NCBI RefSeq assembly: GCF_010560025.1
Contig: NZ_SAIY01000004.1
Coordinates: 124,001-188,000, forward strand
Direction: 5' to 3'
DNA: 64,000 nucleotides
DNA from: Verrucosispora sioxanthis
GTDB lineage: Bacteria; Actinomycetota; Actinomycetes; Mycobacteriales; Micromonosporaceae
The notes under the pieces are model-generated. The model saw only the letters and a program-made list of their open reading frames with translations. It was not told the origin of the DNA and ran no database searches. The translations under genes were made by a program, and so were the position numbers. Below are positions 1,677 through 15,944 of the stretch, in pieces. Numbering within the stretch: the first letter of the stretch is position 1; every line of letters begins with the position of its first letter.

Positions 1677-2693
1677 TCAGGAACCGGCTTCCGCCCTGAC
1701 GGCATCTGGCATCCGCCCGATAGGCCTGGTGCCAGCCTGGCGACGCCGCATCCGCTTCGCGATCAGATCTTCGCCGTCGGTCGCCAACCCGGAGATGCGG
1801 GGTGGCGGTGACTCCTCGGTGTCAGGCCGCTGTCGAGGGTTTCGCGGCCGCACACCGAGACCGCTGTCTTGCCCGGGCGGGATGGCTGGCCCTGGTGTCG
1901 TAGCGAAGGTGACAGGTGCGTCGAAGGCGGCGCGGCGGGCGGCACGGCGCAGAGCGGCCAGGACGGCGGGTCCGACCAGGACGATGGCCAGCACGGTGGT
2001 GATAGCGCGGCCGGTGTCCCACCCGAAGGTGGAGGTGACGGCGGTGAACACGGCGAAGCGGTGCAGGTTCTCCAGCACCGGTGCTCCGGCCACGTAGGAG
2101 AGCTGGGTGTCCGCGCCGATGCTGAACGGCCAGAACCACAGGTTCATCAGCAGCCCGTAGCCGTAGGCGGCGATCGCACCGTAGCCGGCCAGCACGACGA
2201 TCTCGGCCCGGCCCCGCAACCGGGCCGGCAGCAGCCCGGCGCCGAGGCCGATCCACGCGGCGGCCAGCATCTGGAACGGCAGCCACGGACCAACGCCGGC
2301 GGTGAGCAGGGCGGAGGCGAACAGCGAGGTGGCGCCGAGCAGGAACCCGAAGCCGGGTCCGAAGACCCGGCCGGCGAGCACGAGCAGGAAGAACACCGTT
2401 TCGATGCCGGCGGTGCCGGCGCCGAGGGGGCGTAAGGCGGCGTTGACGGCGGCGAGCACGCCGAGCATCGCCAGGGCCTTGCTGTCGATGCCGCCGGAGC
2501 TGAGTTCGGCCAGGACGAGGGCCAGCAGGATCGGTAGTACGGCGACGAAGACAAGTGGCGCCTCGGTGGTACGGGCCATGCTCTCGGATTGGGCGGGCAC
2601 GAAGAACGGCCAGGTGAAGGTGGCCAGCGCGGCGACGGAGGCCAGGACCAGCACGACGGCAGTACGCGGGGCGACCCGCAGGGCGGTCGTCAT
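1677..2693 (-). CDS. ECF transporter S component (predicted cobalamin-specific)
   Basis: This 338-aa integral membrane protein has about six to seven hydrophobic segments between residues 10 and 255 and a polar C-terminal tail, as expected for the substrate-binding S subunit of an energy-coupling-factor transporter. It is the last gene of the ECF operon; its ATG overlaps the stop of the fused ATPase gene (ATGA), indicating translational coupling. The family fold alone does not give the substrate. I infer cobalamin because the operon begins behind a cobalamin riboswitch (about 8050-8180) and encodes transcobalamin-like extracellular proteins. A cobalamin precursor is the main alternative. Confidence 0.75.
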   Translation of the reverse strand: MTTALRVAPRTAVVLVLASVAALATFTWPFFVPAQSESMARTTEAPLVFVAVLPILLALVLAELSSGGIDSKALAMLGVLAAVNAALRPLGAGTAGIETVFFLLVLAGRVFGPGFGFLLGATSLFASALLTAGVGPWLPFQMLAAAWIGLGAGLLPARLRGRAEIVVLAGYGAIAAYGYGLLMNLWFWPFSIGADTQLSYVAGAPVLENLHRFAVFTAVTSTFGWDTGRAITTVLAIVLVGPAVLAALRRAARRAAFDAPVTFATTPGPAIPPGQDSGLGVRPRNPRQRPDTEESPPPRISGLATDGEDLIAKRMRRRQAGTRPIGRMPDAVRAEAGS

Positions 2694-4321
2694 CCTCGTG
2701 TCCCGGCCTCGGCCAACGCGGCGGTGACCTGGTCCACGGTCAGCCAGGGCTGCGGTGCCATCACCTTAGCGACCTGCGGGGCGAACGCGGGTGAGGCGAG
2801 CATGACCTCGGCGGTGGTGCCGTCGGCCACGATCTCCCCCTGCGCCATCACGACGACCCGGTCGGCGAGGGTGGCGACGAGTTCGACGTCATGGGTGGCG
2901 ACGACTACCGCCCGGCCTTCGGTGGCCAGCCGCCGGACGATCGCCGTGAACTGCCGTTTGGCGTGGTAGTCGAGGCCACGGGTCGGTTCGTCGAGCAGCA
3001 CGACCGGTGGTGCGGCGGTGAGCTGGACGGCGAGCGCCAGGGCCAGCCGCTGCCCTTCCGACAGGTCCCGGGGGTGCTGGTCGTCGGGCAACACGGCGGT
3101 GAGCTGGTCCAGCAGTGCCCGGCAGGTGCCCACCGGCGCGTCGGATTCCCGGTCGGCCTGGGCACACTCGGCTTCCACCGTCTCCAGGTAGAGCAGGTCG
3201 CCCGGGGTCTGCGGCACCAGTCCGACGCGCTGTCGAGCCCGCCCGGCGGGCAGTGTCTTCGGATCGGTGGCGCCGTCGGGGCCGGTCACGGTGACCGTTC
3301 CGCCCTGCCGGGGGCCACTGCCCTGTACCGCCCAGAGCAGGCTGGACTTGCCGGATCCGTTGCGGCCCATCAGCGCGACGATCCGGCCGGGATGCAGGTC
3401 GAGGTCGACGCCGGCCACGGCGACCGTGCCGGGGTAGCGCACCACGATGTCGCGGGCGGTCAGCGCCGGTGGAGCATCCGGTGTCGGGGGGGCCGGGGGT
3501 GGCGGGGTGTCGCCGAGCCGCTGCCGGAGGTCCGCTGCGCGGCGACGGGCGTCGCGTACGGACAGCGGCAAGGGTGTCCAGCCAGCGGCACGGCCCAGGT
3601 CGACGAGGGGTGGTGCGAGATCGATGTCGGCGAGCACGACGGCCGGTTCACCGTCGATGACGGTGCCGTCGCCGGGCAGGTAGAGCAGCCGGTCGGCGTA
3701 CTGCACGACGCGTTCGAGGCGGTGTTCGGCCACCACGACGGTGACGCCGAGGTCGTGGACCAGGCGGGTGACGGCAGCCAGGACATCCTCTGCGGCGGTG
3801 GGGTCCAGGGCGGAGGTCGGTTCGTCGAGGACGAGCACCTGCGGATGGCTGGTGAGTACAGCGCCTATCGCGACCCGCTGCTGCTGCCCACCGGACAGAG
3901 TTCGCAGCGGACGGTCGCGCAGCTCGGCGATGCCGAGCAGGTCGAGGGTTTCCTCGACGCGTTTACGCATGACCGGGGCGGTCAGGGCCAGTTGCTCCAT
4001 GCCGTAGGCCAGTTCCTCCTCGACCGTGTCGGTGACGAATCCGGCGAGCGGGTCCTGGCCGACGACTCCGACGACGTCGGCGAGGTCACGGGGAGGATGG
4101 CTGCGGGTGTCGCGGCCCTGCACGGTAACGGTGCCGTGGAGCGTGCCGCCGGTGAAGTGCGGCACCAGCCCGTTGATGGCCCGCAGCAGAGTCGACTTGC
4201 CCGCGCCGGTGCGGCCAGCGACCAGGCACAACTCGCCCTCGGGTATGTGCAGGTTCACGTCGCGCAGCATCGGTTCGGGGGTCTCGGCGTAGCGGACGGT
4301 CACCCGACTGAAATCGATCAA
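2690..4321 (-). CDS. ECF transporter ATP-binding protein, two fused ATPase domains
   Basis: The 543-aa protein contains two complete ABC ATPase domains in tandem, replacing the separate EcfA and EcfA' subunits. Domain 1 (about 1-230) has Walker A GRTGAGKST, signature LSGGQQQR and Walker B VLVLDEPTSALD. Domain 2 (about 290-520) has GRNGSGKSS, a divergent signature LSEGQRLALA and VVLLDEPTRGLD. A proline-rich linker (about 274-290) joins them. The start is TTG 4321, inside the stop of the T-component gene (TTGA overlap). It energises the transporter formed with the genes on either side. Confidence 0.88.
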   Translation of the reverse strand: MIDFSRVTVRYAETPEPMLRDVNLHIPEGELCLVAGRTGAGKSTLLRAINGLVPHFTGGTLHGTVTVQGRDTRSHPPRDLADVVGVVGQDPLAGFVTDTVEEELAYGMEQLALTAPVMRKRVEETLDLLGIAELRDRPLRTLSGGQQQRVAIGAVLTSHPQVLVLDEPTSALDPTAAEDVLAAVTRLVHDLGVTVVVAEHRLERVVQYADRLLYLPGDGTVIDGEPAVVLADIDLAPPLVDLGRAAGWTPLPLSVRDARRRAADLRQRLGDTPPPPAPPTPDAPPALTARDIVVRYPGTVAVAGVDLDLHPGRIVALMGRNGSGKSSLLWAVQGSGPRQGGTVTVTGPDGATDPKTLPAGRARQRVGLVPQTPGDLLYLETVEAECAQADRESDAPVGTCRALLDQLTAVLPDDQHPRDLSEGQRLALALAVQLTAAPPVVLLDEPTRGLDYHAKRQFTAIVRRLATEGRAVVVATHDVELVATLADRVVVMAQGEIVADGTTAEVMLASPAFAPQVAKVMAPQPWLTVDQVTAALAEAGTRG

Positions 4322-5559
4322 CGTTGGGCCTCCGACTCGCTGGTGTCACACTTCGGCGAGCTGCGGGTCGTGCCGTCCGATGGGATGAGCACCGGGCGGG
4401 GGGTGCGGTGGTCCGCGAGCGTCGGCGGCGGTGCCAGCCAGGCCGGCGCGACCGCGACCGCGACGACCAGGAGCATCAGCGGGGTCAGCTCGGGCCAGGT
4501 GAGCGGGCTCACCGGCGGGTAGAGCCGGACCGGGTCCACGGATCCGGCCACCGCCATCACGACAGCGGTGGCCACCCCACAGCCGGCGACGACAACCTCC
4601 GTGATCCGCCAGCGGTCCGGCCGGTAGCGGCTGCGTCGGACCTGCCGGCCGGCCAGCAGCATTCCGACGACGGCTGTCGCCAGACCGACGATCAGCATCG
4701 GCAGACCGAGGTAGCTGGGCACGGTCGCGTCGAGCAGCCCGTAGGTGCCGACGCAGACCCCGACCAGTCCGGCAAGCACCAACCCACCCGTGAGGGCCCG
4801 CTGGCCGGCCGGTATCGCGGCGGTGCGGCCGTAGCCGCGCGAGTCCATGGCCGCGGCCAGGGCGAGGGATCGGTCCAGGGCGTCGGCCAGCACCGGCAGT
4901 GCGATGCCCCGCAAGGCACGCAGACCATTACCGGTGGCACCGCGCAGCCGACGGGCCCGGCGTACCCGCAGCACACTTTCCACAAGTTGCGGGGCCACCG
5001 ACAGCGCGACCACCACTGCGGTACTGATCGCGTACAGCGCAGCGGGTACCGCTTTCAGCAGGCGCTTCGGGTTGGCCAGGGCGTTGGCGGCACCGAGGCA
5101 GATGAGCATCGTCGCCAGGCGCAGTCCGTCGTAGAAGCCGCCGAGGAGCTGTTCGGCGGCGACCGGGCCGAACAGCCGGATGCCGGCCGCCCATGCCGGC
5201 AACGGAATCTCCGGCAGGTGAAGCAGGACGTGGTCACCCTGGCCGCCGCCGAACACGAGGCGGAACACCACCCGCATGGCCACGATCACCGCGCCGAGGA
5301 TCAGGTACATCCGGAACGCGAACGCCCAGGGGGCGTCACCGCGCCGGCGGACAACCACAAGCGCGGCGGCGGCGACGAGTAGCGCCAGTGGCAGCGGGTT
5401 GGTGGTGTGGCTGGCTGCGGTCGCCAGCCCGAGCGCCCACAGCCACCAGGCGCCCGGGTGCAGCGCGCGGGGTAGCCGGCCTGCCACGGTCAGCCGGCCG
5501 GCAGGCGGCCTCAGCGGTGTCTGTCGCGCCACCCCGTGGGCGGTGGCCTGGTCAGTCAT
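4318..5559 (-). CDS. ECF transporter T component (EcfT)
   Basis: The 413-aa protein has multiple membrane segments and the cytoplasmic coupling region of EcfT proteins, including the Ala-Arg-Gly type motif seen here as DSRGYGR (about 238-244), which in this family docks onto the ATPases. It overlaps the gene upstream by 8 nt (ATGACTGA) and the ATPase gene downstream by 4 nt, so the operon order is T, fused A, S. It couples ATP hydrolysis to tilting of the S subunit. Substrate assignment rests on the riboswitch, as for the S component. Confidence 0.85.
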   Translation of the reverse strand: MTDQATAHGVARQTPLRPPAGRLTVAGRLPRALHPGAWWLWALGLATAASHTTNPLPLALLVAAAALVVVRRRGDAPWAFAFRMYLILGAVIVAMRVVFRLVFGGGQGDHVLLHLPEIPLPAWAAGIRLFGPVAAEQLLGGFYDGLRLATMLICLGAANALANPKRLLKAVPAALYAISTAVVVALSVAPQLVESVLRVRRARRLRGATGNGLRALRGIALPVLADALDRSLALAAAMDSRGYGRTAAIPAGQRALTGGLVLAGLVGVCVGTYGLLDATVPSYLGLPMLIVGLATAVVGMLLAGRQVRRSRYRPDRWRITEVVVAGCGVATAVVMAVAGSVDPVRLYPPVSPLTWPELTPLMLLVVAVAVAPAWLAPPPTLADHRTPRPVLIPSDGTTRSSPKCDTSESEAQR

Positions 5560-6477
5560 CCGGCTCGGCGGTCCGCCGGTGGCGGGCGGCTACGAGCCCG
5601 CCACCTGCCAGTGCGACCAGCAGTAACAGCCCCGCCAGAGTGCCCAGCAGGAGGCCGCCGGTGTCACGCGCGGCGGTGACCTCGGTCGGGGGTACGAGTC
5701 CGTCGGGTGGATCGATGGCGTGACAGGCGCAGCCGCGAGCAGCAGAGCGGTGGCCGCAATCGTCGGCACGGGTGGGCTGCCGGGCGGGGTCGCGCTGGTG
5801 GCGGAGGCCGGTGGAGTCAGGGTGACCCCGGCCGGTGGGGTGCTGCCCGCCGCCGGGGGCGCGTTCGGTGGACCGGCGGTCGGCGGGGCGAGCGGCGGCA
5901 CAGCTGACGAGGGGCGCGGCGGTGCCGGTGCGGACGTGCGAGGCGCAGGCGGGGGCGCGGGTGGTGTGGTGCGCGGCGCAGGTGCGGGCCGGGCGGGCGC
6001 CACAGCAGGTCGGGGTGCCTTGTCGGCGTTGCGGTTGAGTGAGAACGACCAGCCTTCGAAACTGCCCGATGGCGGCTTGCGGTTGAGCACACCCTTGTCG
6101 CTGTAGGTCCAGCTGCCCCCGTTGGGTGCGTGCCAGTACGACCAGTAGGCGCTGGCCGGTGGCGTGTCGACGCACTTCTCCGTGCTGGCCGAGGGTTTGC
6201 CCTCGATCCGGCAGATGAACCCCTCGCCCCAGCGCAGCGTGCCGGCGATCTGGAAGCCGGCGGCCTTCAACGCCGCCAGGCCGGTGGCCTGGTCGCCCGG
6301 GGCGCACCGGACGACGGTACCGCCGCCGAGTTCCTTGAAGTCCACCACCACCGTCACGCCGGCAGCGTCAGGGCAGTACCCGGCGCTGCCGGCGGCCGCT
6401 GCCGGAGACGGTCCGAGAAGGACACTGGCGGCGGCCACCGCGATGGCGATGGCGAGGCGGGTCGCCCGGGTGCTCAC
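5552..6477 (-). pseudogene. SCO2322-family (DUF4430-like) secreted protein with C-terminal TM helix, frameshifted
   Basis: The start is GTG 6477, overlapping the stop of the upstream toroid gene (GTGA). The frame encodes a signal peptide (about 1-30), then a domain with the pattern VTVVVDF, ATGLAALKAAGF, W-G-F-ICRI, YWSYWHA and SWTYSDKGV, then a Pro/Ala/Thr-rich stalk. Near 5715-5730 the frame must shift by one base to reach the expected C-terminal membrane helix (TGGLLLGTLAGLLLLVALAG), which ends in a short basic tail at 5552. One lost base explains this. Without the shift the protein ends at 5590 with no anchor. The domain resembles DUF4430, the beta domain of eukaryotic transcobalamin and intrinsic factor, so a role in extracellular cobalamin capture is proposed. 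Whether the break is real or a sequencing error is open. Confidence 0.7.
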
Positions 6478-7931
6478 GTGGCCCGCCGACGGCCGAGCAG
6501 CAGCAGCACTACTCCCCCACCGAGCAGCAGCAGGGCGATGAGCACGTACCCGCCGATCGCCGCGCCGGTGGTTGGTAGCCGGCCCGATCCGCCGGCGGCG
6601 GGACTGGTGACGGAGGGAGCGGGAGTCGGCGCGGTGGTGGGCACGGAAGGCGTGCTGCTCGGGGAGGCGCTCGGTGTCGGGCTGCTGGTGAGCGAGGTGG
6701 TCGGCGTGGGCGACGCGGACGGCGACGGTGAGCCGGTCGGGCTGGATGAGGCGGTCGGCGTGGGTGGCACGGTGACCGATGGGGTGGGCTCGCCGGAGGG
6801 CGGTACGTCGAGGCCGATCCGGCTCAGCGGAACCTGGGCCAGCCCGAGTAGCGCCTGGGCGGTGGCGCGGCGCCACTGGTCCCGGAAGGTGTCGGCGATG
6901 CCGTCGGCGACCGCCTCGGTCAACGCGTCGCTGGCGTAGGCGATGGCGCCGGCATCGGCCGCAGCGGCACCACCGTTGGCGGTGGTGAGCTGCAGCGCGG
7001 CCAGGGATTCGGCGGCCCGTGCCGCTTCGGCGTCGCGCCCGGCCGCGGCCAGGGCCTGCCCGGCCAGGCCGGTGCTGTTGGAGTTCGGGCCGCTGGTCGG
7101 CCCCGACCCGCCGAACGATCCGTCGGCGCGTTGCTGGGCCACCAGCCAGTCCGCGCCGCGCTGAGCGGCCTCGTCCGCACCTGCGGCGTCGGTCGCGAGC
7201 AGTGCCTGCACAGCCATGGCGGTGGAGTCGACGTCGAGGGTGGCGTTGGCCTGGGTGTCACAGGACGGTGACGGCGCGCCGTCGGCGTCGGGATAGAGCC
7301 GGAAGCCGCCGGCCGTGCACTGCTGCCGGACGAGGAAGTTGACGGTTTCCTGCGGTGCGCCGCCGCTGCGGGCCAGACCCAGCACGGCGAAGGACTGATC
7401 GAAGGTGTTGCTGGGGTCCGGGCCGGTGGCCTCGGTGGTCCGGCTGGTGATCCGGCCGTGCTGGTGATCGGTGTCGGCCGCAGCGATCAGGGCCACGGTT
7501 TCGGCACGGAGGTCCCAGCCGCCGAAGTCGGTGGGATCGGCGCCGGCGGCGGAGGCGACGTAGAGCAGTTTCGCGGTGGCACCGCCGTCGGTGAAACCCT
7601 CAAGGCCCCAGTCGTCGTAGCTGTTGTAGGACCGGACGTGCGCGGCGATCTGCGCCGTCGCCGCCTGCCGAGTCGAGCCGGCCACCCCGGTGGCGGCGAG
7701 CGCGATCACGCCATCGATACTCAACCCCCAGTCCTCGGGAGTGAACGGGCCGGGCAGGACGCCGTCGGTGTACTCCCCCGCCAGCCAGGTCGCGGCGTCG
7801 CGAGCGGCGGCGGTGTGGGTCGGCGACGGCGCGGCGGCCACGCCGAAGGGGGTGGCCGCGACGATGGCGAGCGCGGTGGCGGTGGCGACGCCGAGACCGG
7901 CGCCGACGCGCCGGAGCGGGAACGTACGCAT
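6474..7931 (-). CDS. Cell-wall-anchored alpha6/alpha6-toroid (prenyltransferase/squalene-oxidase-repeat-like) protein, predicted cobalamin binder
   Basis: The 485-aa precursor has a signal peptide (about 1-34), a repeat region (about 40-370) built of helical motifs such as DWGLSIDGVIALAA, FDQSFAVLGLA, DSTAMAVQALLA and GLAGQALAAAG, a Ser/Thr/Pro linker, and a sortase signal: LPTTG, a hydrophobic helix, then RRR. The repeats fit the alpha6/alpha6 toroid shared by terpene cyclases and the alpha domain of cobalamin carriers. No DxDD or DDxD cyclase acid motif is evident. ATG 7931 follows GAAAGGCGCC, a sequence also found before the paralogue at 9846. A cobalamin riboswitch lies just upstream. It starts the ECF operon. 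Cobalamin binding is inferred, not shown. Confidence 0.72.
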   Translation of the reverse strand: MRTFPLRRVGAGLGVATATALAIVAATPFGVAAAPSPTHTAAARDAATWLAGEYTDGVLPGPFTPEDWGLSIDGVIALAATGVAGSTRQAATAQIAAHVRSYNSYDDWGLEGFTDGGATAKLLYVASAAGADPTDFGGWDLRAETVALIAAADTDHQHGRITSRTTEATGPDPSNTFDQSFAVLGLARSGGAPQETVNFLVRQQCTAGGFRLYPDADGAPSPSCDTQANATLDVDSTAMAVQALLATDAAGADEAAQRGADWLVAQQRADGSFGGSGPTSGPNSNSTGLAGQALAAAGRDAEAARAAESLAALQLTTANGGAAAADAGAIAYASDALTEAVADGIADTFRDQWRRATAQALLGLAQVPLSRIGLDVPPSGEPTPSVTVPPTPTASSSPTGSPSPSASPTPTTSLTSSPTPSASPSSTPSVPTTAPTPAPSVTSPAAGGSGRLPTTGAAIGGYVLIALLLLGGGVVLLLLGRRRAT

Positions 7932-8049
7932 GAGGGGCGCCTTTCGCAGAGCGGTCGGTGAAAGCTCCGGAAGGCACCTGTGGGCGGCATCCGCTCGCGT
8001 GGCCGCGACGAGATGCCGTACCTCGGTTACCCGGACTCCACCCTGTAGA

Positions 8050-8180
8050 CCTCGACAGTGGAAGCCGCTCGTCCTGTGCGGGGCATTCCGGCTCGCGAGA
8101 CAGCTCTCGCTCACGGTTGCGGGTCAGCGTCGGCTCTACCGACTTCCCCCCGCACGGGACGTATTCAGTTGGGTACCCGG
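8050..8180 (-). ncRNA. Cobalamin riboswitch B, upstream of the ECF/toroid operon
   Basis: Read on the minus strand, the sequence has the cobalamin-riboswitch core in order: GGGGGAAGTCGGT, a complementary CCGACGCTGACC, the B12-box-type CCGCAACCGTGAG, and the closing GAGCCGGAATGCCCC that pairs with the 5' GTGCGGGG. It ends about 120 nt before ATG 7931. That interval holds a hairpin with arms CGGCATC/GATGCCG (7985-8018), a possible expression platform, and AAAGGCGCC just before the start. High cobalamin would be expected to repress the operon down to 1677. Confidence 0.8.
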
Positions 8181-8277
8181 CGCGCCGGGTGTCGCCACCG
8201 TACCGCCCGGTCGCCTTTCGGCGCCAGGGTGGCGGACGACACCCGGCAGTCCACGGCCCGTGTCGGCTACACGCAGG

Positions 8278-8766
8278 TCAGGGGGCGGTGATGCTGGGTG
8301 CCGCGCCGGCGCCGAAGGACCATCCCTCGACCGTGCCAGGAGCAGGGTTGTAGCTGGTCGCCCCCAACGTGCTGTAGGTCCAGGCGGCTCCGCTGCCGGA
8401 GGCGTGCCAGTACGACCAGTACGCGCCGGCCGGCGGCGTGTTGATGCAGGGTTCGGTCGCGGCGGTCGGCTTCCCGTTGATCCGGCAGACGAAGGCCAAC
8501 CCCCACCGCTGCGTGCCGGTCACCGTTAAGCCGGCGCCCTGCAGGGCGGCCAGCCCCGTGGCCGGGTCACCGAGCGCGCACGCCACCTGCACGCCGCCGC
8601 CGAGTGAACCGTAGTCGACCACCACCGTGACCCCCGACGTCCCGGTGCACGCCGCAGCCTGCGCAGCTCGGGGAGACGGTTCGACAGCGATCAACCCGAC
8701 GGCGACGACAGCCGCCACCGCGATGCTCGCCAGCCACCCGCGAACAGGATCGTAGACCTGGGACAT
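8278..8766 (-). CDS. SCO2322/DUF4430-like secreted protein without membrane anchor
   Basis: The 162-aa precursor has an N-terminal hydrophobic signal (about 10-37, ending near AQAAA) and one domain with the same pattern as the 5552-6477 protein: VTVVVDYG, ATGLAALQGAGL, FVCRINGKP, YWSYWHA, AWTYS and VEGWSF. It lacks the stalk and C-terminal helix, so it is probably released. ATG 8766 is preceded by AAGGAG at good spacing; GTG 8772 would be too close to it. It lies 36 bases after the secreted toroid gene, in the same operon. The domain is inferred to be homologous to the beta domain of cobalamin carriers, here encoded separately from the toroid. Confidence 0.72.
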   Translation of the reverse strand: MSQVYDPVRGWLASIAVAAVVAVGLIAVEPSPRAAQAAACTGTSGVTVVVDYGSLGGGVQVACALGDPATGLAALQGAGLTVTGTQRWGLAFVCRINGKPTAATEPCINTPPAGAYWSYWHASGSGAAWTYSTLGATSYNPAPGTVEGWSFGAGAAPSITAP

Positions 8767-8802
8767 GAGCACTCCTTCTGGTGGGACGGAATCTGCGGCC
8801 GG

Positions 8803-9846
8803 TCAGCGGCAGGGCAGGGTGGGTGCGCCGGTGGTCGCGGTGACGGTGGAGAGCCGGGCGAATCCGGTGCCGACCAGGCCGAGAACAGCCTGGGCGGTGG
8901 CGCGGGGGGCGGTGCCGGGATCGAAGACACCACCGTCGAAGTCGACAGCGCCCCGGTCGGCGACCGGGGCGGCACACCCGACCTGAAGATCGGCCAGGAA
9001 CACGCGGGCCCGGAGCCAAGCCAGCGGCCGGCCGCCGTCGCGCAACGCCTGGGCCGCCAACCCGGTGCTGTTGGCGTTCGCGACCCCACCGGCGTTGGTG
9101 AACCCACCGTCGGTGCGTTGCACCGAGACCAGCCAGCGTAGTCCCGCGGCGGCGTCAGCCGGGCTGCCGGCGGCCCGCAACGCCTGCACCGCGACGGCGG
9201 TGGCGTCCACGTCGGAGACACAGAGCGGCTGCTCCGGCAGCAGCGGATAGCCGCCGTCCGGGCACCGGGTGCCGGCCAGCCAACCGGCGGCGACCGCCGG
9301 CGCGCCCTGCGCGGTCCGGTCCAGCGCGAGGATCGCGAAGGACTGGCTGAACGCGTTGCTGAAATCACCCCACGCCGACCGGTCGGTGAACCGGCCAGCC
9401 GGGTCCTGGAGCGACCGCAGCCGGGCAATGAGATCCACACCGCCGACGTCGGTCGGATCGCCGCCGCGAACCGCGACGGCGAGAGCGAGCTTGGCGGTCG
9501 CGCCCGCGTACGCCTCGGTGGCGCCGTCGCCGATGTACCCGTCGCGGACGTCCGGCCGGGTGGCCCAGGCCAACGCCTGAGCGCCGAAGTCGTCGGCGAC
9601 ACCGGCGGCGGCGAACGCGAAGACCGCGTCCAGGGTCAACCCCTGGTCCGGGTACGTGACCCCGTCGAAGACGGCCTCGAAACGTTCACCGTCGACCAAC
9701 TGTCGGGCCAACCATCCGGCGGCGGCATCCGTCCGGACGGCACCGGCCTGTGCGGGTGCGGCGTTCGTGGATGTGCTGAGAGTGAGGGCGGCGAGTATCC
9801 CGCAGAGCAGGGCGAGCAGGCGGTGCCGGCCCAGGCGAACGACCAT
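8803..9846 (-). CDS. Secreted alpha6/alpha6-toroid (prenyltransferase-like) protein, predicted cobalamin binder
   Basis: The 347-aa precursor starts with a signal peptide (about 1-35) and has helical repeats like those of the anchored paralogue at 6474-7931: GLTLDAVFAFAAAG, SQSFAILALDR, ATAVAVQALRAAG, QRTDGGF and GLAAQALRDGG. It lacks a sortase signal and ends at PTLPCR, so it should be freely secreted. ATG 9846 follows GGAAAGGCGCC. It leads a two-gene operon with the DUF4430-like gene 8278-8766 behind riboswitch A. The pairing of a toroid with a beta-like partner repeats the arrangement in the next operon. Confidence 0.72.
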   Translation of the reverse strand: MVVRLGRHRLLALLCGILAALTLSTSTNAAPAQAGAVRTDAAAGWLARQLVDGERFEAVFDGVTYPDQGLTLDAVFAFAAAGVADDFGAQALAWATRPDVRDGYIGDGATEAYAGATAKLALAVAVRGGDPTDVGGVDLIARLRSLQDPAGRFTDRSAWGDFSNAFSQSFAILALDRTAQGAPAVAAGWLAGTRCPDGGYPLLPEQPLCVSDVDATAVAVQALRAAGSPADAAAGLRWLVSVQRTDGGFTNAGGVANANSTGLAAQALRDGGRPLAWLRARVFLADLQVGCAAPVADRGAVDFDGGVFDPGTAPRATAQAVLGLVGTGFARLSTVTATTGAPTLPCR

Positions 9847-9882
9847 CGGTTGGCGCCTTTCCGGCCCGGCGGTCGTCGAGAC

Positions 9883-9912
9883 CCGGCCCGCCGTGATGCT
9901 GCGGCGGGCCGG
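9883..9912 (-). terminator. GC-rich hairpin between riboswitch A and its gene
   Basis: CCGGCCCGCCG (9883-9893) and CGGCGGGCCGG (9902-9912) form a perfect 11-bp stem with an 8-nt loop. It sits between the riboswitch core and ATG 9846 and has no U-tract. It may be the expression platform (terminator or ribosome-site control). Confidence 0.4.
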
Positions 9913-9957
9913 CCTCCGACCCGTGGGCCACGACGGGTGGGGAGCAGAGACTCGCGA

Positions 9958-10070
9958 GTACGGCAGGTGATCGGGCTCGCCACCAGGGATGCTCCCTGGC
10001 GGCCTACCGTTGCGGGCCAGCGCCGGACTTCGACCGGACTTCCCCCGCACGCACACGCGGTTGTTCAGTT
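9958..10070 (-). ncRNA. Cobalamin riboswitch A, upstream of the secreted toroid/DUF4430-like pair
   Basis: On the minus strand the core reads GTGCGGGGGAAGTCCGGT, CGAAGTCCGGCGCTGGCC, the B12-box CCGCAACGG, a CGCCAGGGA/TCCCTGGTGGCG stem, and the conserved 3' end GAGCCCGATCACCTGCC. These are the diagnostic cobalamin-riboswitch elements in the right order. A TTGACA -35 candidate lies upstream (its complement at 10102-10107). It controls the two-gene operon 9846-8278. Confidence 0.82.
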
Positions 10071-10290
10071 GTCGCGCCAGTCTCGTTCGCCGCACGGCCA
10101 CTGTCAATCAGCGACCGTACGTGCACCATGGGTAGCCGCTTCGCGGCGTGGCCACGGTCTCGCTCTCGCTCCAGCACATCCCGCTCCCGCTGAACCGGCC
10201 ACCGGCACAGGTGGACCGCCGAGGGATACAGCTCACAGCGAGCACCAGGCCGCCCCGCTGAGCGGCCGGGTCGGGATAGGGTGACCGACG

Positions 10291-10490
10291 GCGCTGGTTC
10301 GCCCGGCCGTTGCTGGTGGGGCGTCGTAAGAGGGAACCCGGTGAGAATCCGGGACTGCCCCGCAGCGGTGAGTGGGAACGACAGCCGTCACCACGCACTG
10401 GGCCCCCCGGCCTGGGAAGCGACGGCCAGTAGGAGACCGGACGGGTCCGGCACCGCCCACGAGTCCGAAGACCTGCCCGCGCTGCGGACA
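10291..10490 (+). ncRNA. Cobalamin riboswitch C, upstream of the thioesterase gene
   Basis: This is a textbook long cobalamin riboswitch on the plus strand: AAGAGGGAACCCGGTGAGA, ATCCGGGACTG, CCCCGCAGCGGTGAG, CCTGGGAAGCGACGGCCAGT, and GAGTCCGAAGACCTGCC. A GGGATAGGGTGA sequence just before it may contain the -10 box. GCCCGCG (10475-10481), overlapping the conserved 3' end, can pair with CGCGGGC (10517-10523), a possible switching helix. The first gene downstream is the acyl-CoA thioesterase at 10612, an unusual target. Confidence 0.88.
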
Positions 10491-10611
10491 CAAGGTGTGT
10501 GCGCTGCCGTCGACCTCGCGGGCGGGTCGGGCGGGTGACGCGCCGCAACGGCGTGTTCCTCGACGTGCGCGCCGACGGGTCGGTGGCTTGTTCCCCGAGA
10601 ACGGACGCCAC

Positions 10612-11124
10612 GTGCACGACACGACCACTCTCGCCGGCCGACCACCGTCGGCCTCCCACCTGACCCTGTCGCAGATCATGGACCAGCACCACACCAACCT
10701 GATGGGCACGGTCCACGGCGGCCGGATCCTCAACCTCATCGACTCCGTCGCCGGAGTGGTCGCCGCCCGACACTCCGACGGCCCGGCCGTCACCGCCGCC
10801 ATCGACGAGACCGCTTTCCTCCGCGCGGTCCGCGTCGGCGACGTCGTACACGTCGACGCCCGCATCACCTGGGCCGGCCGCAGCTCCATGGAGGTCACCG
10901 TCAAGGTCACCGCCGACCGGTGGGACCGCGCCGTACCACCGACCGACGTGGCCACCGCCCACCTCGTCATGGTCGCCGTCGACGACAACGGCCACCCCCG
11001 CCCGGTGCCGCCGCTGCTACCCCAGACCGACGGCGACCGGCGCCGCTACCGCGAGGCACAGATCCGCCGCGAGCACCGGCTGACCCTGCGCCGTGCCCTG
11101 CTCGACGGCACCGAGGATGCCTGA
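10612..11124 (+). CDS. Hotdog-fold acyl-CoA thioesterase
   Basis: The 170-aa protein has the YciA/BACH-type hotdog pattern: MDQHHTNLMGTVHGGRILNL (central helix with the GG turn), ETAFLRAVRVGDVV and ATAHLVMVAVDD. These enzymes hydrolyse acyl-CoA thioesters in the cytosol; substrate range cannot be predicted. GTG 10612 is chosen because the conserved region begins shortly after it. The frame is open far upstream, but that part overlaps the riboswitch. The gene lies about 120 nt downstream of cobalamin riboswitch C and would be under its control unless another promoter exists. A possible link is methylmalonyl-CoA or other acyl-CoA overflow when B12 is short, which is speculation. Confidence 0.8.
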   Translation: MHDTTTLAGRPPSASHLTLSQIMDQHHTNLMGTVHGGRILNLIDSVAGVVAARHSDGPAVTAAIDETAFLRAVRVGDVVHVDARITWAGRSSMEVTVKVTADRWDRAVPPTDVATAHLVMVAVDDNGHPRPVPPLLPQTDGDRRRYREAQIRREHRLTLRRALLDGTEDA

Positions 11125-13061: not shown

Positions 13062-13619
13062 ATGAACGACCGCAGTGAGGTGGAGCGGCTGGCGCGCACC
13101 CGGCTGCGGAGCATCCGCACCACGCTCGGCTACTCCCTCGAGGAACTCGCCGAACGCACCAACCTCAGCCCGTCGACGATCAGCCGGGTCGAAACGGGCA
13201 AACGGACACTCAGCCTCGATGTGCTCGTGCCCTTGGCCAACGCGCTACAGGTAAGCCTCGACGTCCTCTTCGAGCCAACCAGCGACGAGGACGTGGTGAT
13301 CCGCCCCGTGCAGCACCGTTCGGGTTCGCGCACCACGTGGCCGCTGAGCCGCGTCGACGGACGCACCATGGCGATGAAGGTCCGGTTAGAGCCCGAGGCG
13401 ACGATGCCGGCCCAGCGGGTCCATCCCGGGTACGACTGGTTCCTCGTGCTCGATGGCAGGGTGCTGCTGTGGCTCGGTGAGCGGCAGATCGAAGTCGAAA
13501 AGGGCGAGGCAGCCGAGTTCTCGACGATGACCCCGCACTCGATGACAGCCCTCGACGAGCCGGCCGAGCTGATCATGATCTTCGACCGCGAGGGGCAACG
13601 CGCACATCTGCACCAGTAA
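13062..13619 (+). CDS. XRE-family regulator with C-terminal cupin domain
   Basis: The 185-aa protein has an N-terminal helix-turn-helix (about 10-65: IRTTLGYSLEELAERTNLSPSTISRVE, split here as sensor-independent HTH helices 2 and 3) and a C-terminal cupin barrel (about 105-180) with the partial metal-site pattern HPGYDWFLVLDG and a later PHSMTAL. Such proteins bind an operator through the HTH and a small ligand in the cupin. The divergent layout with the flavoprotein-methyltransferase fusion suggests that the shared 76-bp intergenic region holds its operator. No clear palindrome was found there. Confidence 0.85.
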   Translation: MNDRSEVERLARTRLRSIRTTLGYSLEELAERTNLSPSTISRVETGKRTLSLDVLVPLANALQVSLDVLFEPTSDEDVVIRPVQHRSGSRTTWPLSRVDGRTMAMKVRLEPEATMPAQRVHPGYDWFLVLDGRVLLWLGERQIEVEKGEAAEFSTMTPHSMTALDEPAELIMIFDREGQRAHLHQ

Positions 13620-13849
13620 GCCTGAAACCGGGCAGGACGGGACCGGCATGACGTGCCGATGACGCCGCGCCCTCATCGACGCGGCACCTCCGACGTTGGG
13701 CGGCCCGCCCTACGCACTCGACGAAGTGTGCAGCCACCGCGAACGCAGCCAGCGGACCGGCCACGTCGAGTGGCTGCACACCATCGAGAGGGACGACCAG
13801 GAGTGTCTGACGTGACGCCGGACAGATCAGGCCGGGCCGTCGCCGAGGT

Positions 13850-15283
13850 TCACACCGTACCGAAGAAGCTCCTGAGTGCCGGCACCCGGCGAATCAGGAG
13901 TTGGTCCAGTGCGAGGATCACCAGCAGCGACAGACCGAACAGGGGCAGGAACACGCCGAGGACGGCCATCGCGGCGAGCAGGAGCCAGTTGCCCCAGATC
14001 GGAAGTTCCCCGCGGGGTGCGGCCATCCCGGAGGCGGTGCCGCGGCGGGTCCACCACATCATCGGTCCGGTGACGCACATGAAGATCACGGCGAGGCAGA
14101 ACAGCGTGGACAGGATCTCGTTGGCGACGCCGAGACGCCGTCCCTCGTGCAGGGCGATTCCGTGGGACACGACCTTGGCCATGGCGCTGTAGTCGGCATA
14201 GCTGTACTGGCCGACCTTCTCGCCGCTGTACTGGTCGACGTGGACCGTTGTCTCCTGGGTGACGTCGGACTCGGCGGGGTTGCCGACGTTGTACCACTGG
14301 CTGCTCATCACGCTGAAGACGCCTGTTTCGCCTTCGGGATACATGATCAGGTACGGCCCGGGAGCGCCCTGTGCCTGCGCCGTGGCGACGGCCTTGTCGA
14401 TCGAGATCGGTGTGCCGGCGCCGGTGCTGGTGCCCTGCGGCGCGTTGCCGGAGGCCCATCCGGCGGGCGCCGACTGGCCGTCGCTGTTCTCGATCTGCTG
14501 CCGGATGGTGGACTCGGCACCGGGATCCTCGCCCCAGAGCGAGATGTTGCCGTGCACGGCGAGTTCCGACGCTTTGGCGCCCCAGAAGCCGGTCCACGGC
14601 AGGCCGGAGATGACGAGCAGCAGGACGCCGAGGCCCACGGGGAGCCCGACGATGGCGTGCCAGCCACGGACCCGGGCACCGCGTCTGCCCTTGGCCTGGG
14701 CGCCGCTGCGGGCCTTACGGCCGAGGAAGAAGATGATGAACCCGGTGATCGTCAGCACGATCCCCCAGGAGGCGCCGAGCTCGACGATCCGGTCTCCCAC
14801 GCCACCGTCGCCGATGAGCAGGTCACCGTGGATGCGCTCGGCCCAGGTGGAGACGAGTTGGTCCTGACTGAGCGCGCCGGTGACCTCGGAGGTGTAGGGG
14901 TTCACGTAGACGTTCGTGGTGCTGCCGTCCTCCTGAGCGGCGACGAACAGGGTGGCACGGTCGCCGACGCCGTCCTGAACGGACAGGATCGAACGATCCG
15001 GGAACTCAGCGCGAACAGCCGCTTCCTGGGCGGACAGCGTGACCCTCTGGGCACCCTCGACCACGGAAACCTTCAGCACCCCGGGATGCGTGAGGGAGTC
15101 CACGTCGTCGCGGAACATGTAGATCATGCCGGTGACGGAAAGGGCGAAAAGCACCGGGATGACGATGATCGAACCGTAGAAGTGCCAGCGCCAGAACGCG
15201 GCGAACCAGTTCGTCCTGCGGACTCTCGCGGTAGGCGCGGGCGTCTCCGCGGGAGGTGGCGCTTCGGTCTCTGAGACGGTCAT
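13850..15283 (-). CDS. PepSY-domain membrane protein (PepSY_TM / PiuB-like)
   Basis: The 477-aa protein has four membrane segments: one after a short cytoplasmic N-terminus (about 35-55), two near residues 170-235, one at 380-400, and a final hydrophobic hairpin at about 430-465. PepSY modules lie between them, in the regions starting near residues 65 and 290. The family includes iron-regulated and siderophore-reductase-like membrane proteins, but no function can be assigned here. It is divergent from the DUF5134 gene at 15342. Confidence 0.75.
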   Translation of the reverse strand: MTVSETEAPPPAETPAPTARVRRTNWFAAFWRWHFYGSIIVIPVLFALSVTGMIYMFRDDVDSLTHPGVLKVSVVEGAQRVTLSAQEAAVRAEFPDRSILSVQDGVGDRATLFVAAQEDGSTTNVYVNPYTSEVTGALSQDQLVSTWAERIHGDLLIGDGGVGDRIVELGASWGIVLTITGFIIFFLGRKARSGAQAKGRRGARVRGWHAIVGLPVGLGVLLLVISGLPWTGFWGAKASELAVHGNISLWGEDPGAESTIRQQIENSDGQSAPAGWASGNAPQGTSTGAGTPISIDKAVATAQAQGAPGPYLIMYPEGETGVFSVMSSQWYNVGNPAESDVTQETTVHVDQYSGEKVGQYSYADYSAMAKVVSHGIALHEGRRLGVANEILSTLFCLAVIFMCVTGPMMWWTRRGTASGMAAPRGELPIWGNWLLLAAMAVLGVFLPLFGLSLLVILALDQLLIRRVPALRSFFGTV

Positions 15284-15341
15284 CGAGGTGGGCCTTTCAA
15301 GCGTCGCCGGTCGCCCGGTTCACATGGTCTAAGTTGTAGTC

Positions 15342-15944
15342 GTGCTCGAGGCCCCATGGGTTCCCGTATTGACGGTCGTCTTCTTGCTGACCGGTCTCGT
15401 CTGCGTCGCCGACCTCGTCGTCCGCCGCCGGGCGGTTTCCCGTGACCAGCCCTTCTCCGATGAGGAACTGGTCGGCATCAACCACGGCGTGATGAGCGCG
15501 GCGATGATCCTCATGGTCTGGGTGATGGTGGAGGGCGCGGTCGCCTGGGCACAGATCGCGGTCTTCGCGATCCTCGCCCTCGCGCTGCTACCCGCCTACC
15601 GACGCACCCGGCATGCATCGGACCGAGCCGATCTGGTCAGTCACGCCGCGATGGACGTGGCGATGATCTGGATGCTCGCGGCCATGCCCACACTCATGTC
15701 CGAGTTGGGAACCGGCGGCGCAGGCGCCGGGCACTCCCACGGCGGCGGCGCCTCCGGCGGAGTACCCGTGCCGACACCGGCGTGGGCGGACACGGTCAAC
15801 ATCGCCTTCGTGGTACTCGCCGCCGCCACCGCCCTGTGGTGGCTGTACCGCACCATGACGGCGTCTCGCCACCGGCTGCACTCGCTCAGCTACTCCGTCA
15901 TGGCCGCTGGCATGGGAACCATGCTGCTACTCATGAACGTGTGA
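15342..15944 (+). CDS. DUF5134 membrane protein
   Basis: The 200-aa protein has five to six hydrophobic helices with conserved His/Met-rich positions (GINHGVMSAAMILMVW, HAAMDVAMIWML, HSLSYSVMAAGMG) and a periplasmic or cytoplasmic HSHGGG loop (about 132-137). This matches DUF5134, a family of unknown function. The His and Met residues in the membrane suggest metal (possibly copper) handling, which is inference. GTG 15342 is preceded by TAAGTT (15330-15335) at the distance expected for a leaderless transcript. Confidence 0.75.
   Translation: MLEAPWVPVLTVVFLLTGLVCVADLVVRRRAVSRDQPFSDEELVGINHGVMSAAMILMVWVMVEGAVAWAQIAVFAILALALLPAYRRTRHASDRADLVSHAAMDVAMIWMLAAMPTLMSELGTGGAGAGHSHGGGASGGVPVPTPAWADTVNIAFVVLAAATALWWLYRTMTASRHRLHSLSYSVMAAGMGTMLLLMNV

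Follow-up and report, generated by a model that had tools for sequence, protein, structure and literature searches.

Gene content of the locus

A 64,000-nucleotide stretch of the Verrucosispora sioxanthis genome (Actinomycetota, Micromonosporaceae; assembly GCF_010560025.1, contig NZ_SAIY01000004.1, positions 124,001 to 188,000) was analysed for a group of genes that probably serves the capture and import of vitamin B12. This whole stretch is referred to as the window, and coordinates are window coordinates unless a locus is named. On the minus strand, positions 1677-9846 hold two consecutive operons, each with a gene for an exported alpha/alpha-toroid protein followed by a gene for a small exported protein with a predicted beta-grasp domain. 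The second operon runs on into the genes of an energy-coupling factor (ECF) transporter. The genome carrying the window has a size of 6.37 Mb and is 97% complete. A preliminary description, made from the nucleotide sequence alone, had listed the same two toroids, two small exported proteins and full ECF transporter at these positions.

The first operon consists of toroid-2 (8803-9846, minus strand) and beta-2 (8278-8772, minus strand), both exported and both anchorless. In the second operon, toroid-1 (6474-7931, minus strand) is an exported toroid protein with a Ser/Pro/Thr-rich stalk and an LPTTG sorting signal at 6564-6578. Its stop codon is overlapped by the start of beta-1 (5590-6477, minus strand), an exported protein with a Pro-rich stalk. 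The LPTTG signal on one toroid and its absence from the other had also been described before. The best profile matches of the toroids were to the NCBIfam family SCO2321_fam (NF053823; 93.8 and 111 bits) and those of the small proteins to SCO2322_fam (NF040672; 35.9 and 29.8 bits), all under the curated cut-offs, and neither family name implies a function. Among named genomes, beta-2 was matched best in Micromonospora, with 97% identity in M. andamanensis.

The transporter genes follow on the same strand. EcfT (4318-5559) is the transmembrane coupling subunit and belongs to the CbiQ family (PF02361, 31 bits, cut-off 25), EcfAA' (2690-4321) has two fused ECF ATPase domains with ABC_tran matches in two stretches, and the S component (1677-2693) matched PF12822 (ECF_trnsprt) at 32.8 bits with a cut-off of 30.7. 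The ECF set following the toroid-1/beta-1 pair is therefore complete by profile, as had been claimed. The S component also matched riboflavin and folate S families under their cut-offs, and the cobalt-type CbiM was absent from the profile matches listed for it. PF12822 is a general S family, and the S component is proposed here to be the corrinoid-binding subunit of the transporter.

We compared the window with 30 loci from the same bacterial family that were chosen for holding a toroid; some genomes gave two loci, and the locus counts are not independent. All three ECF parts were in the same fetched stretch as the toroid in 24 of these loci, and one of the other six is a 3-kb contig.

Cobalamin riboswitches and a probable B12 regulon

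Each operon is preceded by a cobalamin riboswitch, as the preliminary description had stated, and both are divergent in sequence. The leader of the toroid-2 operon (9945-10108, minus strand) matched the Rfam family RF00174 at 27.5 bits (E 0.0007) and that of the toroid-1/ECF operon (8060-8172, minus strand) at 24.4 bits (E 0.005), both under the gathering score. In the control stretch, positions 11401-64000, not one Rfam family was matched at E up to 0.1, and positions 1-1499 were scanned at the gathering score only.

In the bacterial family of the host, 37 upstream stretches covering 42 toroid genes were scanned. Relatives with the cluster have largely kept the riboswitches, as a cobalamin or adenosylcobalamin (AdoCbl) riboswitch match in the orientation of the gene was found for 35 of the 42 toroid genes (E up to 0.1), and 19 of the 42 reached or exceeded the gathering score. 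In an alignment of 25 leaders, selected from the riboswitch matches, the core was nearly invariant and 7 of 17 predicted base pairs stayed paired despite changes on both sides. Eight loci from more distant actinobacteria were scanned with the gathering score as threshold. A riboswitch was found upstream of the toroid-beta fusions of L214, L215, L226 and L228 and at a beta gene in L229; none was found at this score upstream of the L227 fusion or in L230 and L224. Among seven further loci, the riboswitch was located at a toroid or beta gene in L173, L174, L178 and L186 and elsewhere than at these genes in L180, and L192 and L196 gave none.

Six cobalamin riboswitch matches were found in the whole genome, four of them over the cut-off. 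They are located at metE, the class I nrdAB genes, a BtuFCD-like transporter (named from NCBIfam matches under cut-off), the two toroid leaders and positions 10278-10494, and together they look like a B12 regulon. A MetH domain and CobS were found in the genome. CbiJ and CbiC gave no match in it, in searches whose controls gave a match in 3/14 and 7/14 genomes. Because of these control rates and the 97% completeness, the absence of corrin ring synthesis is likely but not proven, and this gene content fits a salvager.

Predicted fold of the small proteins

The fold of beta-2 was modelled with AlphaFold2 on 43 aligned beta domains, and the model had a mean predicted local distance difference test (pLDDT) score of 91.7. 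In the PDB, this model had B12 carriers as its top 15 Foldseek matches, each a transcobalamin, haptocorrin or intrinsic factor structure, with E from 0.019 to 0.29 and probabilities from 0.66 to 0.99. Right after them came two matches to 3u7z from Ruminococcus gnavus, which we take to be a DUF4430 protein. A second structure aligner gave Z 9.6 over 94 residues at 3.0 Å to a carrier beta domain, and its first row beyond the B12 carriers and 3u7z had Z 6.3. Going by the model, the small protein has the transcobalamin-type beta-grasp fold. The earlier label 'DUF4430-like' holds for the fold of the beta-2 model and fails at the level of the Pfam family. A PDB sequence search with the beta alignment gave no relevant match.

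Proteins over the DUF4430 cut-off also occur next to toroids. They directly adjoin a toroid in two other actinobacteria (G231 and G100), and in G231 an LPLTG-type toroid gene and then such a protein (L225, 11847-15134) lie beside an SCO2322-ECF cluster. The SCO2322-type and DUF4430 beta families may be interchangeable toroid partners. Among 296 Actinomycetota genomes, 52 were listed with SCO2322-type domains at E up to 1e-5, some of the matches being partial, and 51 with DUF4430 at E up to 0.001. Only three genomes (G100, G167 and G231) were listed for both, as if one family replaced the other.

Toroid fold and natural toroid-beta fusions

The toroid-1 protein marginally matched PF01122, the eukaryotic cobalamin-binding family (13.5 bits against a cut-off of 25), and toroid-2 was not listed. 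The same family was matched at E up to 0.01 by 2 of 149 related sequences, the best at 0.00018. PDB sequence searches with the toroid-holding alignments found cyclases and thioester proteins, and transcobalamin was not among the best 60 of 61 and the best 60 of 87 rows.

Actinobacterial relatives fuse the toroid and the beta domain in both orders, whereas the window keeps two genes. The order beta-toroid-toroid was found in one open frame in L047 (also L166), L174 (where the beta domain is cut by the locus end), L196 and L208, and the order beta-toroid in L181, L184 and L212. The transcobalamin order, toroid-beta, was found in one frame in L214, L215, L226, L227, L228, L235 and L236, and with a longer spacer in Tessaracoccus (L177).

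The evidence on the fold of the window's toroids comes from a model of the L226 fusion, from another actinobacterium, together with sequence alignment. The model (416 residues, 56 sequences) had a pLDDT of 94.5 and a predicted template modelling (pTM) score of 0.82. Transcobalamin, haptocorrin or intrinsic factor accounted for all of its top 14 Foldseek matches, at E 7.8e-11 to 6.5e-9, and the 15th was a squalene-hopene cyclase (E 2.2e-5). Both domains matched the carriers singly, and the beta domain was not placed as in closed transcobalamin. Folding was done with alignment A6. Alignments A3, in which the toroid rows had slid under the beta region, and A4, with one row on the wrong strand, were set aside, and A3 was used only as a sequence list for the Pfam scan. 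Alignment A2 omits L073 and the L059 row at 9699-10652.

Pairing and anchoring of toroids and beta proteins

Toroid and beta domains occur in equal numbers in 24/30 family loci. L069 has a double toroid with two beta proteins, and L047 has three toroids with three betas. Unequal numbers were found in L050 and L059, each with three toroids and two betas, and in L057, with one toroid and two betas; for L050, a pair of partial matches lying in different frames was taken together as one beta domain. A weak toroid-like protein encoded elsewhere in the genome (L073) was excluded from the pairing and anchor counts.

The preliminary description had distinguished a soluble from a wall-anchored form, and the C-termini of 44 toroid frames are clearly split in this way. 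An LPxTG-like signal was found in 19 of them and a hydrophobic segment without such a signal in 6, while 18 have at most 16 residues after the domain and one (L066) shows neither. The window holds one toroid of each main kind, toroid-1 with its LPTTG signal and toroid-2 with no anchor. Beta-2 likewise stops directly after its domain, and most ECF-linked beta proteins end in a hydrophobic segment. Beta-1 is anchored by a membrane segment in close relatives; in this assembly the C-terminal transmembrane segment is out of frame (the frame of the segment runs to 5552). The beta-1 frame breaks in the Pro-rich stalk (region 5552-5720), and a genus neighbour (L042) is also without an in-frame segment there. 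Both a real change and a sequencing problem in the GC-rich repeat are possible.

Some toroid-beta fusions run on into further domains that were found over the Pfam cut-off, namely S-layer homology domains in L228 (1483-3834) and cell wall binding repeats 2 in L226 (7069-9381) and L227 (7397-10279). To judge from these domain matches, they appear to be other routes to surface anchoring.

Interpretation and alternative explanations

We interpret the locus as a system for scavenging B12 (corrinoids) by split two-chain capture pairs, one released and one held at the surface, that feed an ECF transporter, and we give this interpretation a probability of about 0.75. At low B12, the riboswitches would permit expression of both operons, going by how cobalamin riboswitches work. 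The exported toroid (alpha) and beta-grasp protein (beta) would then close over one corrinoid, in the way that the two domains of single-chain transcobalamin or intrinsic factor do. One pair would be released, both of its chains ending directly after the folded domain. The other would be held at the surface through the sortase signal of the toroid and, in relatives, through the C-terminal membrane segment of the beta protein. This surface pair would pass its corrinoid on to the S component of the operon's own ECF transporter, and import would use ATP. The two-halves carrier idea of the preliminary description is supported in this form by the genes and their order, the leaders, the modelled beta fold, the natural fusions and the anchors. 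From these we infer corrinoid binding, the pairing of alpha with beta and the hand-over to the S component. In the tests of beta fold, DxDD motif and riboswitch retention, none of the outcomes that the preliminary description had named as refuting it came about.

Several observations weigh against this interpretation. Both operon riboswitches score under the RF00174 gathering score of 31.5, and 7 of the 42 family leaders gave no riboswitch match; among these seven, L086 is not a true leader, as it sits within the fused gene of L047, and L081 and L083 belong to toroid-1 genes downstream of toroid-2/beta-2 in the same direction. Three of the 30 family loci (L049, L056 and L062) hold one toroid and no beta protein in the fetched stretch. 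The best Foldseek match of the beta-2 model has E 0.019 and none reaches 0.001. The DUF4430 family of Pfam (PF14478) was not matched by beta-1, beta-2 or any of the 149 related sequences, and an hhalign comparison of the SCO2322-type family with DUF4430 gave a weak, collinear alignment (probability 19%, P 0.0012, 67 columns; P 0.71 for the toroid control). The two domains of the L226 model superpose together on transcobalamin, haptocorrin and intrinsic factor only at 17-18 Å root-mean-square deviation, the model being ligand-free. For its toroid, the structural match to terpene cyclases is closer (Z 24) than that to transcobalamin (Z 20.4 over 251 residues, 3.4 Å), and the third aspartate of the cyclase DxDD motif, presumably the catalytic one, is kept in 43/47 toroids. 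The genome also encodes the BtuFCD-like importer with a riboswitch of its own. Because of this importer, the ECF route need not be the sole import route.

Given the cyclase likeness, one alternative is that the toroids act as secreted enzymes, either terpene cyclases or prenyltransferase-like, whose place in a B12 operon is incidental. Among their single-domain matches, by profile and by fold, those to squalene-hopene and similar cyclases are the strongest, and the third aspartate is mostly retained. The toroids do have a cyclase-type fold, but the fourth aspartate at the DxDD position is missing in 47/47; a DxDD string was found at another position in two of the 47. The toroids are moreover exported and then anchored or released, they are often paired or naturally fused with a transcobalamin-type beta domain, and riboswitches precede their genes. 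We rejected the terpene cyclase assignment since the motif is not intact in any toroid, though the cyclases gave the highest single-domain fold score, and an enzymatic role of this kind seems highly improbable.

Rather than finished corrinoids, the ligand might be cobalt, another metal or an unrelated vitamin. EcfT is a member of the CbiQ family, the S component matches the riboflavin and folate S families under cut-off, and in other bacteria cobalt transporters, too, are under cobalamin riboswitch control. The assignment of the S component to PF12822, with CbiM not among the matches listed, lowers the case for a cobalt transporter, and since neither CbiC nor CbiJ was matched in the genome, a supply of cobalt for making the ring would serve little purpose; the exported domains, for their part, resemble corrinoid carriers. 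We consider such a ligand quite unlikely. It is also conceivable, albeit unlikely, that mainly precursors or analogues (cobinamide, other cobamides) are captured and that the BtuFCD-like importer receives no smaller a share of them than the ECF transporter. Precursors could be completed, because CobS is present while CbiJ and CbiC were not found, and the BtuFCD-like genes are under a riboswitch. The gene order speaks for the ECF transporter instead, as in the window its genes come immediately after the anchored pair, and its three parts accompany the toroid in most family loci.

Further cobalamin riboswitches near toroid clusters

The riboswitch at 10278-10494 (plus strand) was overlooked in the preliminary description, although it is far stronger than the other two of the window (96.9 bits). 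It points away from the cluster, and we assign it to the same regulon, outside the capture system. Behind it lies a 4HBT/YciA-like hotdog thioesterase gene (10594-11124, plus strand), and the same arrangement recurs in three named Micromonospora (L142, L143 and L146). As a guess, the thioesterase might relieve a build-up of acyl-CoA when the B12-dependent methylmalonyl-CoA mutase stalls.

In a genome of the same genus (G003, locus L042), the equivalent riboswitch (L077; about 12898 onward, plus strand) faces the 3' end of an apparent metE gene (13335-15803, minus strand). Either it would give rise to a transcript antisense to metE, or it is a remnant. In other Micromonospora, an apparent metE with its own cobalamin riboswitch lies upstream of the toroid cluster (L147, 1979-8452; L150, 2667-5248), and in L147 the same stretch also holds ribonucleotide reductase genes with their own cobalamin riboswitch.

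Relation to known systems and biological meaning

The general idea has a precedent that the preliminary description did not name. Passages of Burroughs, Balaji, Iyer and Aravind (2007, PMC1796856) describe exported bacterial proteins in which a toroid and a transcobalamin-type beta-grasp (SLBB) domain are fused in either order. The same passages place such genes in operons with CbiO/CbiQ, propose B12 scavenging, and name as hosts low-GC Gram-positives, planctomycetes and, less often, euryarchaea, usually without key B12 synthesis genes. The word 'riboswitch' is found nowhere in the main text of that paper. As far as these passages go, the proteins described here are alike in combining the two domains, in being exported and in lying beside ECF-type genes. 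They differ in coming from Actinomycetota, in a beta family unmatched by the DUF4430 model, in being separate chains in the window, in forming released and anchored pairs, and in their cobalamin riboswitches. Toroid and beta-grasp proteins as B12 scavengers are therefore not new in general; what is added is an actinobacterial family unrecognised by Pfam in a split two-chain form, with released and anchored pairs, riboswitches and equal numbers of toroid and beta domains. In the literature searched (openly licensed PubMed Central papers, mostly as listings), we recognised no treatment of the split actinobacterial form.

The animal carriers transcobalamin, haptocorrin and intrinsic factor (PF01122 plus a beta domain) appear to share the fold of both domains, as judged from the models, and some actinobacterial fusions have the same alpha-then-beta order. 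In contrast, the window encodes two polypeptides, toroid-1 stays under the PF01122 cut-off, and the fusion model did not show the closed arrangement. The B12 transporter ECF-CbrT of Lactobacillus delbrueckii, whose S component itself binds the vitamin according to parts of its description (PMC5997447), is alike in ATP-driven ECF vitamin import by an S component and an EcfA/T module. On the same partial basis, it differs from the present system, in which exported capture proteins share an operon with the full ECF set.

We regard it as possible, but rather doubtful, that the anchorless pair is a released two-chain scavenger, assembling around corrinoids at a distance from the cell and handing them to the anchored pair as an external binding device for the ECF transporter, and that a modular pair of bacterial proteins gave rise to several fused forms, the animal one-chain carrier among them. 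Such a released pair, if real, would be a protein counterpart of a siderophore or hemophore. In the ECF class the S component is held to do the substrate binding itself, and the proposed system would give a reason for such a transporter to have external capture proteins.

The present interpretation bears on how actinomycetes such as Micromonospora, Salinispora and Streptomyces may capture B12 outside the cell, and many microbial interactions turn on who takes up B12. It would provide concrete genes, open to experiment, for the functionally uncharacterised families SCO2321 and SCO2322. The series of natural arrangements, from separate chains to fusions of either order, bears on the origin of the animal B12 carriers.

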